Assembly: GCA_037833965.1 (NCBI GenBank)
Contig: AP031355.1
Location: 11,681,501-11,745,500 of the forward strand
Length of the DNA stretch: 64,000 nucleotides
Origin: Marchantia polymorpha subsp. ruderalis
Lineage: Eukaryota > Streptophyta > Marchantiopsida > Marchantiales > Marchantiaceae
Reading direction: 5' to 3'
Both the position numbers and the translations under genes were made by a program. Positions 32,151 to 56,311 of this stretch are shown here, in pieces (position 1 is the stretch's first letter; every line of letters starts with the position of its first letter). A model generated the notes under the pieces. It saw nothing but the letters and a program-made list of their open reading frames with translations, was not told the origin of the DNA and made no database searches.

Positions 32151-34148
32151 TAATTTGAAGAATAAAAAATCTGTGTAAATCATAATTGATAAATTCATAT
32201 TAGAAAAGAGATATAATTTAAAATAATGTTAAGCAAAAGATATATAGTTGATGATGTTAATCTGAGCAATATGAAATTTATAGCATCAATCTTAAAATAA
32301 TATATGCTAGTGATATTAATACAAAACCTATTTAGTAACAAAGATTTCAATAATTAAGATTTCCATGTTTAATAAAATTCTATACGAAAAGACCATTTTT
32401 AATGAAAATAATTACTTAAAGAAGCTTTTTATCTTCTATGTGTTAAGTCTATCGAGTAGAATTAGCTGCCACCTTTGGATTAGGTTAGGTTAAGTTTCAG
32501 CTTCTTTTCTATAAACTCAAATGTGAGCCGTCTGCAAATCCTAGTAGCAGTATAGAGAAAGTCATCATTTTTATGGTCAGCTATGCTGTCAGGATGACCA
32601 CGTGCTAGTGTGAAAGCTTCTTTGTTATCACGATCAGGTTTTGTTACAAGATACTAGTATCAAAACATTTCATCTTTCAAGATGACGATATATTTTGTGG
32701 AAGATTTAATTTATGATTTTTATTTTAATATATAAATTCTGTACAAAAATTTAAAAGAGTAAAGATAGTAATTTGGATACCCTCAAACAATTAAAAACAC
32801 TAGTAGCAATGTAAAATAATCAGACGATCAACATTCTTGGTCAAACAAGGGAAGAGAGTACACTTAATTCATCAAGTTGTGACAAGAAAAGTAAATTCAT
32901 TGCCACATGATTTGAGTTGACACTCCAGATTAGAATGGAATGGAAGAGAGACTAAACATGAAGCTTAAAGAGATGAGAAGTCTTCTCTATGCAGGAAATA
33001 TTCTATATGTTCCATAATTCTACAAAATAAGGATTGTTATCAAATCAAAATACGGAATACGCAGAGTTCAATTAAAACCTTTAATATTTTTTTCAATAAT
33101 TGTACAATTTGACAGCAATGTAGTACTACTTCAAGGAATATTGATGTTATTTTTTATCTATAGAAATAGTTTTCCCATTTCAGAGTTGAAAATTTGCTTT
33201 CTAGTGTTCGGAAGTGTATAGGCTAATACTGCAAAAAATTTGATAAGTTGAAAAAACCTGTACTTAATGCCTGGAATACTCCAAGCCTCACTGAAGTCAA
33301 ATTGTTCTGAAAGACAATTTACGTCATTGTGAATTTTTTATTCACGGTGCATGGCAACTAAAAGCTGCTTGTGTTGTTTCACTATTTTATAAATGGAGTT
33401 TTGTTGCAAAGAAACTGCCAAACCATCTTGATAATTCAAAACTATTTGAACGACATTGTGCTTTCAACACTGTAAGTTCTTGATATAAGCAAGGAGTCAA
33501 AGTGTTGTAACTTGTTTGGTTGACCTCATTCCGTGTGTCATCTATTGTGCTCAAATTGTAAATTGTTTTTAAAAAATAATTTTTAAGTGCATGCAAAATT
33601 TCAAGTCTTGAAGTGGATAGCAAAGAATCTTTGATAAACAAATGGATAGCAAAGAATCTTTGATATTGAACTATTCTGATCAAATTGGCATGACTAACTT
33701 GCCATCGTTCAAATGTAACGCTGAAATTAACTTAAGATTGTCAACAATGCATTCCATGAATGCAAATCGCTATAAACTAATCCTCAATTATTAGAAAACT
33801 AATTTTTACTATGTAATGTGATTCTTCGTCCTTGCAAACTTTCAACAAATTAGTTGAAATGGTCAAAAAATTCATTATGACTACAACCAAAATCCATGAA
33901 CACAATGTGGATCTCTCACTCAATTATTGAGGAGCATCAGTATCATTAAAATAAGTCATGATTTTATATCGTCTTTTGTTCAAAAATTGTGATACGCAAA
34001 CATCAAGGTCCAGCGGGTAGGAGACAAATTTGGGCAAACATCTTACATTTTGCCAATCTAAATCCTCTGACAAAGTAGAAAGAAAATCAATGAGGTATGT
34101 ATCTAAAAGAAATCTAAAACCTGATGTTTTGTAAACTTTTGTATCACG

Positions 34149-34183
34149 ATATAGATCTGATGTAGTATACATCAGATCTATAT
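34149..34183. repeat. Perfect hairpin, 16-bp arms, 3-base loop
   Basis: ATATAGATCTGATGTA at 34149-34164 is perfectly inverted at 34168-34183 around GTA. Confidence 0.9.
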
Positions 34184-35007
34184 GAAATATGGTCTAAAGA
34201 TTATTTGGATACACTTGACAACTCCAGATAATTGTCTGATCATATTGATAGCACCATTAATTAAACATCTGATTAGCTTGTCCTTCCATCAAAAAATTTC
34301 AAAAACATATCAAACATGGACAATACAATATGTCAATCAGAAAAAAAAATATAATAATAAGAGGAAAATTTTCAAGAGATGATTTTGATAGATCAAATCC
34401 TGACATCAATCCAAGATATTTTTTGCAAATCACAATATGCATCAAAGACTACATAATATTCTTCTCATTTGGAATGTAGAATCTGTGCAATGTTCTCAAT
34501 TGATATTGCGCATGCAATTCTAACATCTCAAGCAACTAGATATTTTTTGCAAAATTCAAGTTTTGAAATTTCACATACCTTTTTTTATCTTGAACGGCAT
34601 AAGCATAACAAAAAGACAATTTTATGTTCACACATGTCGTCTATATTTAGTGTCGTACTAGGGTTAGGAATCACTCTAGTTGTACAGTATATAGTCGGAG
34701 AAACTCAAAAAGCGTTACGTTCTTTGAGTTGAGCCTTTGCGCTTTGGTAATAGCTTGTAGTGGACTAGCTGTGATGTCACCGTTAGCTTCGAGATGTGGA
34801 GTGGATTTGGCTCAACCTGATATGACTGTTTGTGTTTGAATCAATGAAATTTGCACAATACAATTCACTTAAAGAATTCACAGTGTATGATTACAGGTTT
34901 AGGTTACTGTTATCGTTGTACTGAAAGTGAAAAGTGGAATTCGTTGTTGGTGATTTCATTTTTTGTCGATTGTGTTTGTTGGAGTTGTTATGTTTGTGTT
35001 AATCCGG

Positions 35008-35830
35008 ACTGTAAGACCGGGTGTTGCACATATGTACTAAGTCTTAGAAGTGGTCAAGGGAATAAGGATGATTAGCCAAGGCATAGCTAAGACTAGCTAG
35101 TTATGACTAAACTAGTTAGTTATAACTAAGTTTATCTAGTCATGACTAAGTTTAGCTACAATGTCTATAGTTGGCGGAATAATTAGCGGAGTTCTAGAAG
35201 AATGGAGTGAGCACTTCTATTTTGTCTTTTACAAGGAGTGAGCACTTCTATTTTGTCTTATACAAAAATTCTAGATTCCAAGTGATTAGATATTTGACTA
35301 GAAGCTTGGATTTGATTGGTTTGACTAAATGTATGAAAGATGATTGGCTAGACTAAGTCTAATGTTGACTTAGTGGCTAGGAAGCTTGTAGAAGTTTAAA
35401 AGCTTCAAATGGCATGTCGCCACCTCAACCTTGGATTCCAGAAGCTTCTAGAAGGTTTAGGTAGGCCAATGGCATGTTGCCACGTAGAGAAGCTTAGTCA
35501 AACTTACCTAGGTAAAAGTAATTTAGGAGAAATTACCACACGTTACTATGGTAACTTCTCAAGTAGTATAAATAGAGAGGTAGAGTAGCACCTCTCAAGC
35601 AAGTTTGGAGAGTCATGTGTGAGGACTTGTTTCAGTAATGAAGGAGTGAAGTTTTTGAGTATCTTGGAGTATCGACGTGTGTTTGCGTTTATGTGAAGAG
35701 AGTGATGTGAGGAGAGTTTGTGTATGAGTTGGAGTGATACATGGAGAGTTTATGAGAGAAGGTGTTTGGGATATGAGCGAGATGATGAATCCTAGTCTTC
35801 TGGAACCATGATGCGCTACCACAAAGCCAT
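35008..35830 (+). mobile_element. LTR-like stretch, unproven
   Basis: This stretch has features seen in plant LTRs: a TATA box (TATAAATA, 35567-35574) followed by a transcribed-looking leader, and dense short repeats. The repeats include palindromic ctagttatgactaa units at 35095-35155, two copies of a 31-bp repeat at 35204-35265, and AATGGCATG(T)(C/T)GCCAC at about 35407 and 35468. No second LTR, primer-binding site or polyprotein was found, so a solo LTR or an unrelated repeat is possible. The boundaries are approximate. Confidence 0.3.
35204..35265. repeat. Tandem repeat, two copies of 31 bp
   Basis: GGAGTGAGCACTTCTATTTT begins at 35204 and again at 35235; the two units differ at one or two bases. 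Confidence 0.9.
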
Positions 35831-36194
35831 CAGAGGTAAACCTGAGTGAGAGTCAGCTCGGAGGTTGAAGGACCGGTACACGTTCGAGTGTGGATTTGTT
35901 TTCCAAGGTGCGATGATCCGGTGGTGCCAATCATGGAATGAATCTGGTGGCCAGATTGAAACTTTCCGAGGATTTTGTTCTCAAAGATCGAACAGTGAAG
36001 TGAGACGGATTTGAAAATTCAAAACAGTTCGCGTGTGCATGAGATGGTGTGACTAGTCGATATTTGGAAGGGTTGAGAGAAAGAAAAGGTTGGAAAAGGG
36101 CTAGCGACGGGAGTAGGGGAACAAAGGACAAGAGATAACGCGATGCTTATGAAAAGCGAGGTGTGAAAGATGATACAGAGGAATTATCTTGTTT

Positions 36195-55288: not shown

Positions 55289-55296
55289 ACGATGGG
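55289..55296. repeat. Left 8-bp target duplication of the hAT element
   Basis: ACGATGGG stands immediately before the left terminal repeat and is identical to 56304-56311. Confidence 0.9.
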
Positions 55297-55518
55297 CAGG
55301 CCTCTCTATACGGGCGAATTCCTTATGTTCCTTATCTCGTCAAAATAAGGAATATTTTCAGAACAAAATAAAGAACATACGTAACATGACATAAATCTGT
55401 CATGTTTTCTTTAATAAACTTCGAATTTGACTACAGTGTAATATACCTTCAAGAGAAATGGGAGTTATATTGGACCTATGAATATCTTTCTCCCATTTCA
55501 AAACTGAAAAATCACTTT

Positions 55519-55773
55519 CTACCGTTGTAGTATAAGGCTTGAGTCCAGGTCTTGGAGGCTCTGGAGCAGAAAATGTATTCGGTTCACTCCAGCGGTCCTT
55601 GAGCCAGGAGAAGGTGAAGTGGGATCTGGAGCTAGAAAGAAGGGATCCAACACGAAGCTAGAAAGAAGGGATCCAACACGAAAACGGGAAAAACATGAGA
55701 CGCATCTTCGCGTCGCAGCTTTATGCAGAGCAGGATTGTCGTGTAAGCGCAGCCCCTTCCGAAACCACATCAA
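55519..55773 (-). pseudogene. UVR3: Fragment of a (6-4) photolyase (UVR3-like), captured by a hAT element
   Basis: The minus strand encodes the N-terminal part of the antenna-binding domain of a photolyase/cryptochrome: [15 protein letters not shown], then [12 protein letters not shown], then [19 protein letters not shown] and QDLDSSL. The AGVNRI..LL.SL.DLDSSL block matches plant (6-4) photolyase best. It is broken. One base shift precedes the FVLDP segment (the alternative frame reads [13 protein letters not shown]). A 26-base tandem duplication (the reverse complement of TTCGTGTTGGATCCCTTCTT plus six bases) repeats the same segment and brings the frame back. The flavin-binding C-terminal domain is absent, so no repair activity is possible. 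The fragment lies wholly inside the hAT element, which indicates gene capture. The parent gene is not in this window. Confidence 0.85.
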
Positions 55774-56098
55774 AGAATGCTAACCATAGTTCTACTTTCT
55801 CCGACTCCGCAAAGATGCCTCGCCCGACTCACAGAGGTGCGGATTCTAATTCTTGACACTGCAAAAGGTGGCAGAATAGTCGTGCACTTTAAAACCAAAG
55901 GCATTTGTTGCACCGCCGAATTTAACCAGAAATCTTGTAAATTGATCCCCCTCTCTGTAGATTATCAATTCGATTCGATTTAATTCGATATAATTCGAAT
56001 GGGAGCTTTAGTGTCTGGGAAGCAGGTCATGCCTGGCAACTCCGTGACATCTCCTTCGTGGGTGACACCGACGGGACTGATTTCACGAAGAGTGCGCG

Positions 56099-56138
56099 TG
56101 GGAAGGTTATCGAAACAGGCGTTTCGATAACCTTCCCA
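56099..56138. repeat. Perfect hairpin, 18-bp arms, 4-base loop
   Basis: TGGGAAGGTTATCGAAAC at 56099-56116 is perfectly inverted at 56121-56138 around AGGC. It lies in the right subterminal part of the hAT element. Confidence 0.95.
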
Positions 56139-56169
56139 TACCGTTTCGAACGACTGTTTCGAAACGGTA
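56139..56169. repeat. Hairpin, 12-bp perfect arms, 7-base loop
   Basis: TACCGTTTCGAA at 56139-56150 is inverted at 56158-56169. It directly abuts the 56099-56138 hairpin and shares its CGTTTCGA core. Confidence 0.95.
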
Positions 56170-56303
56170 CCTGCAGTTTAAGTTTGTTAGTAGCGCCTCC
56201 AAAGTGAACGAGGTCATTTATGGTCCAAATACGGAACTTTAAAAAAACGTAATACGGAACTTTGACTCAAAAGTTCTGTATGTGCCGAATATAGAGAGGC
56301 CTG

Positions 56304-56311
56304 ACGATGGG
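56304..56311. repeat. Right 8-bp target duplication of the hAT element
   Basis: ACGATGGG directly follows the right terminal repeat and is identical to 55289-55296. Confidence 0.9.

Follow-up and report, generated by a model that had tools for sequence, protein, structure and literature searches.

The window analysed here is a 64,000-nucleotide stretch (G000:C6:11681501-11745500) of a genome that was searched as nine contigs totalling 241 Mb. It contains a 1007 bp element (55297-56303) whose 14-bp inverted ends and 8-bp ACGATGGG flanks are both perfect. A scan of the whole window for perfect 14-bp inverted pairs lying no more than 3 kb apart with perfect 8-bp flanks returned this element as the sole case, and 20 mononucleotide shuffles of the window returned no inverted pair with 8-bp flanks. 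First-pass annotation held that these ends and flanks define the element exactly, and the coordinates are confirmed: the photolyase fragment it reported inside the element stops within the ends, and the flanks are not part of a longer duplication. That annotation overlooked a second host-gene piece in the element, a phospholipase D (PLD) remnant (Table 1). The subterminal hairpin repeats near the right end consist of GGTTATCGAAAC / GTTTCGATAACC and their neighbours, and this inverted match occurs in at least 8 copies. Elsewhere in the window, a second transposase remnant of the same family (33088-34605, minus strand) is 33-58% identical in pieces with broken frames, and a copy of a ~770-bp repeat lies at 35098-35867. 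Other copies of this repeat host insertions of three relatives of the element (L009, L017, L056) and one copy is nested in a fourth (L010, 5420-6190); the repeat is possibly a preferred target of these elements.

Table 1. Features of the window element and donor loci of the captures found across its family
Feature	Position	Strand	Relation or identity
Left target-site duplication (TSD) ACGATGGG	55289..55296	.	
Left terminal inverted repeat (TIR) CAGGCCTCTCTATA	55297..55310	+	
Element left end, common to longer relatives	55297..55537	.	~95% to L009
Last ~45 codons of transposase, including VESDFS motif with putative catalytic Glu	55403..55537	-	
3-bp AGG at internal-deletion junction	55535..55537	.	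L009 763 joined to 4703; also in sister L021
Broken capture from 5' part of (6-4) photolyase gene, covering upstream region and some of exon 1	55535..55976	-	parent L047 481-893, 91%
26-bp perfect tandem duplication	55630..55681	.	absent from parent and L021
~20-bp filler of local ATTCGAT-type repeats, right edge of photolyase capture	55977..55996	.	
79-bp PLD gene remnant, earlier capture	55997..56075	-	98.7% to L048
Element right end, with subterminal hairpin repeats at 56099-56180	56073..56303	.	
Right TIR TATAGAGAGGCCTG	56290..56303	-	exact complement of left
Right TSD ACGATGGG	56304..56311	.	
PPR donor, L055	C2:7937693-7938587		93%
C3 donor	C3:27165549		95-97%
C4 donor, two pieces	C4:26730654-26730878 and 26731946-26732116		86-93%
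C2 donor	C2:3656258		93%
PLD donor	C4:11606 kb		95%
MLO donor	C4:19647506-19648790		96-98%
Photolyase donor	C6:12473880-12475598		98%
C9 donor	C9:21844147-21845987		98-99%

The photolyase piece of the window copy, 91% identical to its parent over 443 aligned positions, is a broken N-terminal fragment on the minus strand, as first annotated. The parent gene sought genome-wide was found on the same contig at ~G000:C6:12474069-12478414, with a start codon near C6:12474069 and hits to the FAD-binding domain onward to 12478414; the best photolyase match outside the elements (C6:12473880-12475598) is 98% identical over 1719 aligned positions. The capture is longest in L009 (3405-5114), where it comprises ~190 bp before the start codon, exon 1, and sequence beyond; the exon there, less damaged than that of the window copy, matches Pfam DNA_photolyase at E 1.4e-27. 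The 1719-bp match runs unbroken past the end of exon 1, indicating copying of genomic, intron-bearing DNA, and a retro-copied origin of the fragment was rejected because the match continues into intron sequence. All six photolyase copies that cover the start codon have the same two substitutions and the same missing base at codons 2-3, so this break in the frame is older than the window copy, and on the same ground we rejected photolyase as a working cargo gene of the larger elements. The annotated history of capture followed by a base shift therefore stands as regards the damage to the frame, but not as regards a later event in the window copy. The tandem duplication annotated there, a 100% identical repeat (55630-55655 / 55656-55681), is private to that copy, as are its other indels. 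We infer that the captured piece is a passenger without function.

A genome search with the window element returned at least 52 matches (40 of 124 candidates scored). Photolyase sequence occurs in eight elements (the window copy, L009, L010, L013, L014, L015, L021 and a copy on C9, L022/L023), and PLD sequence in 13 of 16 copies compared with the donor L048, namely these eight and L011, L012, L016, L017 and L018; among the 16 it is absent from L019, L020 and L056. Longer copies carry a transposase gene read right to left, which in L010 and L013 is a 716-codon stop-to-stop open frame, and the larger photolyase elements carry their photolyase sequence upstream of it. Photolyase and transposase sequence occur together in L009, L010, L013 and L015. 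This places the capture in a larger transposase-bearing ancestor, and the first-pass view that the window element itself made the capture is rejected. Four of the copies (window, L014, L015 and L021) are deletion forms. The one on C4, L021, matches the window copy in composition and in its internal-deletion junction but has a different TSD, and as non-autonomous elements with TIRs, a TSD and a copied gene piece inside, both are Pack-TYPE by definition. The window copy arose by an internal deletion that joined the transposase tail to the photolyase piece via the 3-bp AGG match.

Two further sets of copies lie beside this series. The C9 copy (L022, L023; G000:C9:23149373-23188058) spans 38.7 kb with the same TSD, ACCATGTT, at both ends and with photolyase and C9-donor pieces inside; its two ends were the parts read, and it is apparently swollen by insertions. 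L062-L065 (C2, C3) represent a further short family, ~830-890 bp long, that has ends of this kind and consists in part of transposase pieces; they contain none of the captures named for the window family, and their TSDs are perfect with a central AT in two of the four, 7/8 bases in one and none in one.

Assignment to the hAT superfamily, made at first annotation, is probably right. Of 19 copies inspected at both ends, 14 have perfect 8-bp TSDs and L065 matches in 7/8 bases; the remaining four, L015, L018, L020 and L063, have no clean TSD. The short TIR CAGGCCTCTCTATA starts with CAG and has 240 genome matches at one mismatch or fewer, versus 28 for a reversed control pattern. The landmarks of hAT transposases are the D, D, CxxH, W and E of the catalytic core together with a BED-type finger. 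In the family, D253, D320, C349xxH352, TRW402, E678 and a CxxC...HxxxxH motif are invariant in six of six aligned proteins, two of which are 98% alike (L061, its frame in two pieces, was omitted). Local hhalign comparison with canonical hATs of the same genome aligned 425 columns and kept the landmarks in register, yet E was 0.046 and the probability 1.1%; a global run aligned 34 columns (E 0.96), and a run with fewer sequences aligned the C-terminus only (E 0.032, probability 1.6%). The models tried do not recognise the transposase: no match was obtained from Pfam at E up to 1 (L010) or 5 (four paralogues) or from NCBIfam (two proteins), no transposase relative was found in PDB, where a profile-search match at E 0.83 was taken as chance, and none of the family loci is among the matches listed (best 150 of 295 candidates) in a genome search with PF05699. 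All 12 perfect TSDs tabulated, and two further ones, have a central AT (nnnATnnn), a pattern that agrees with neither the Ac nor the Buster consensus. The Ac consensus is nTnnnnAn. That of Buster elements is given as nnnTAnnn (PMC3517528). With its landmarks in order, the transposase probably represents a divergent hAT branch. That placement rests on architecture and is the weakest link of the name.

Captures in this family are layered. Eight donor loci were found, comprising PPR, PLD, MLO and photolyase genes and four that are unnamed; eight frames taken from the C9, C3, C4:26.73 and C2:3.66 donors and scanned against Pfam gave no name to any captured stretch, and one of the four adjoins a zf-DNL exon. 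A further candidate, C3:21619101, was rejected since transposase sequence adjoins it, making it another element copy. L056, 90-92% identical to the long copies, has only the transposase and the two ends in common with the others; of the eight donors none was seen in it, with ~0.9 kb of its interior lying outside the comparison. L020 contains 1.0 kb reaching from the last codons of the PPR gene into its flank (L055). Later copies retain 121 bp of this PPR stretch; next come ~50 bp of the C3:27.17-Mb locus, with another 277 bp of it at the far side. Between the C3 pieces sit two pieces of the C4:26.73-Mb locus, separated in the source by 1.1 kb, and inside these, in L016 and L017, are pieces of the PLD gene and the C2:3.66-Mb locus, which may have entered in either order. 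L018 and its relatives are without ~1.4 kb of the older captured series. In L011 and L012, 1.3 kb from inside the MLO gene is sited within the PLD piece; Pfam Mlo hits flank this stretch on both sides in the donor. In L009 the MLO stretch is cut down to its first ~130 bp, the remainder having been replaced by photolyase sequence across the MLO-PLD border, and in L010 and L013 1.6-1.8 kb of the C9:21.84-Mb locus separates the older pieces from the photolyase. In three cases (C4 in C3, PLD and C2 in C4, MLO in PLD) an earlier capture survives as remnants on both sides of a later one.

The inferred order was compared with transposase phylogeny and with donor identity. A first tree of 12 rows was nearly star-like. 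A second, of 11 copies, was built from transposase and end columns with captured columns removed and with the short copies (window, L014, L019, L021, L022) excluded; on it the seven capture states need 6 changes, the minimum, in a lenient test, three of the seven states being single copies. In the best tree the post-PPR (support 86/94), post-deletion (92/91), photolyase (63/83) and C9 (45/75) copies each form one clade, none of them starred. The MLO-bearing copies do not form one clade, and their monophyly is not rejected (AU p 0.072). The transposase tree is thus compatible with the capture order, with weak support. Donor identity climbs roughly with the inferred order, from 93% for PPR to 98-99% for C9, with the two-piece C4:26.73 donor (86-93%) out of line.

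Joins of the MLO, photolyase and C9 captures and of the deletions, read by eye, show 0-4 bp of microhomology or short filler. MLO joins share ATC on the left and TC on the right. The photolyase capture has TA on the left and, on the right, the 20-bp filler of local ATTCGAT repeats, while the left C9 join is a re-start in which AGTTAGCCAT is present twice and the right has no clear microhomology. The deletion joins are AGG in the window copy and ACT in L014. These joins fit what is expected of interrupted, template-switching repair of an excision gap.

Very probably, then, the window element is a non-autonomous copy, shortened by internal deletion, from a hAT-type cut-and-paste family whose transposase-bearing members serially captured pieces of at least eight host loci. 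Excision of an element would leave a gap, and repair would copy inward from both ends with a sister copy as template. The copying would sometimes dissociate and, using a few matching bases, prime at an unrelated locus, so that 0.3-1.8 kb of genomic DNA, introns included, would be copied before rejoining. The captures went into the region upstream of the transposase gene, and products sparing both ends and the transposase would stay mobile and open to further hits, which accounts for the way later captures interrupt or straddle the older ones. The last step, an internal deletion, removed most of the transposase and produced the ~1-kb form, which then moved at least once, presumably with transposase supplied in trans, given one deletion junction in two copies with different TSDs. 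We infer gap repair as the route, and mobilisation in trans, from these products. The open frames of two copies make present-day movement possible.

Interrupted gap repair yields replaced sequence and internal deletions with short matches. Both products occur in this family, several captures being replacements rather than insertions and the same elements having internal deletions with 3-bp matches, and this speaks against a rival route that needs no excision gaps, in which the captures were made when replication forks stalled and switched template (FoSTeST) and were then spread by transposition. We regard that route as unlikely. In its favour, the subterminal repeats of the element are hairpin-forming, and the re-start at one junction fits template switching under either model. 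FoSTeST is the explanation offered for multicopy Pack-TIRs in animals in PMC8277862. Replication-based switching would leave similar joins, and nothing here separates the two models.

A different reading, which we find doubtful, is that the captures were selected, with host segments upstream of the transposase renewing its promoter or leader or evading homology-based silencing; the photolyase piece would then supply a promoter and first exon. The inclusion of sequence before the photolyase start codon as well as exon 1 is in keeping with this, as is the presence of the latest capture in both copies with open 716-codon frames. The four nameable donors (PPR, PLD, MLO, photolyase) are all in the transposase's orientation, though four out of four is not significant (two-sided p 0.125). 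The position of the captures is explained without selection if only transposase-sparing products stay mobile, and the PPR and PLD pieces come from the ends of genes rather than from promoters. We give equally little credence to an extension of this idea, in which a divergent hAT-like lineage marked by nnnATnnn evolves by serial 5' replacement with host gene DNA, renewing its promoter or evading homology-based silencing, in a haploid-cycle plant that leaves only the sister chromatid for gap repair.

Still less probable, and in our view very unlikely, is that the fragment acts as a functional chimeric gene or yields small RNAs that regulate the parent photolyase. L021 is 97.8% identical to the parent over ~413 bp, enough for small-RNA targeting in principle. 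The frameshift shared by every copy covering codons 2-3 speaks against this reading, and private substitutions of exon 1 in five copies, 12 replacement versus 7 silent, give no sign of coding constraint at a power that is low (counts exclude the window copy, unsure around indels; L013, in which the start is uncovered; and position 306, beyond exon 1). Together with further indels in the window and L010 copies, these counts resemble drifting DNA. That the donor loci instead gained these stretches from elements is scarcely credible: no supporting evidence was found, Pfam hits fall on exons within the photolyase and PLD stretches, an Mlo-hit exon stands on either side of the MLO stretch, element homology ends inside all three loci, and no family TIR pair with TSD was seen at donors L046 and L047, the direction being less secure for the four unnamed donors than for the named ones.

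Ds elements arise from Ac by abortive gap repair, which leaves internal deletions, short matches and filler. The window family resembles them in its deletions with short matches and in its filler, here extended to gene-length stretches and several rounds. Maize Ds2 (two elements) and Ds-l4 (nine) hold filler copied from intron-bearing genes, a feature its authors call rare in hAT elements (PMC3260210); they share with the window family their superfamily and their gene-copied, intron-containing filler, but the text available from that report describes no nested donor series in transposase-bearing copies. Among metazoan Pack-TIRs, 208 of 370 are in hAT (PMC8277862), likewise with host pieces between TIRs, microhomology at joins and a gap-filling model; in contrast to the window family they are mostly single-copy, and the available portion of the paper describes no serial series in transposase-bearing copies. 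Pack-TYPE elements, including Pack-hAT of maize and rice, are similarly TIR and TSD elements holding a gene piece copied from a donor at another site, but as presented in PMC8903248 they are defined as non-autonomous, whereas here transposase-bearing copies captured and kept host DNA with several donors stacked. The word 'hAT' is absent from the main text, as available, of a 2026 review of plant gene capture (PMC13317346). Titles and abstracts of the open-licence literature yielded no such series for Marchantia hAT capture, photolyase-hAT capture, or autonomous or multi-locus capture. Gene capture by hAT elements is thus already known and called rare; serial capture by a transposase-bearing lineage is a new form of it.

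Debate over how cut-and-paste elements pick up gene pieces still relies mainly on isolated end products. The present family preserves a series, with eight donors, copies at several stages and readable joins, so that the record of its history is largely readable, the capturing is shown to have been done by transposase-bearing copies, and gap-repair and replication models become testable within one genome. If the liverwort host holds, gene capture by hAT elements would be extended beyond flowering plants.
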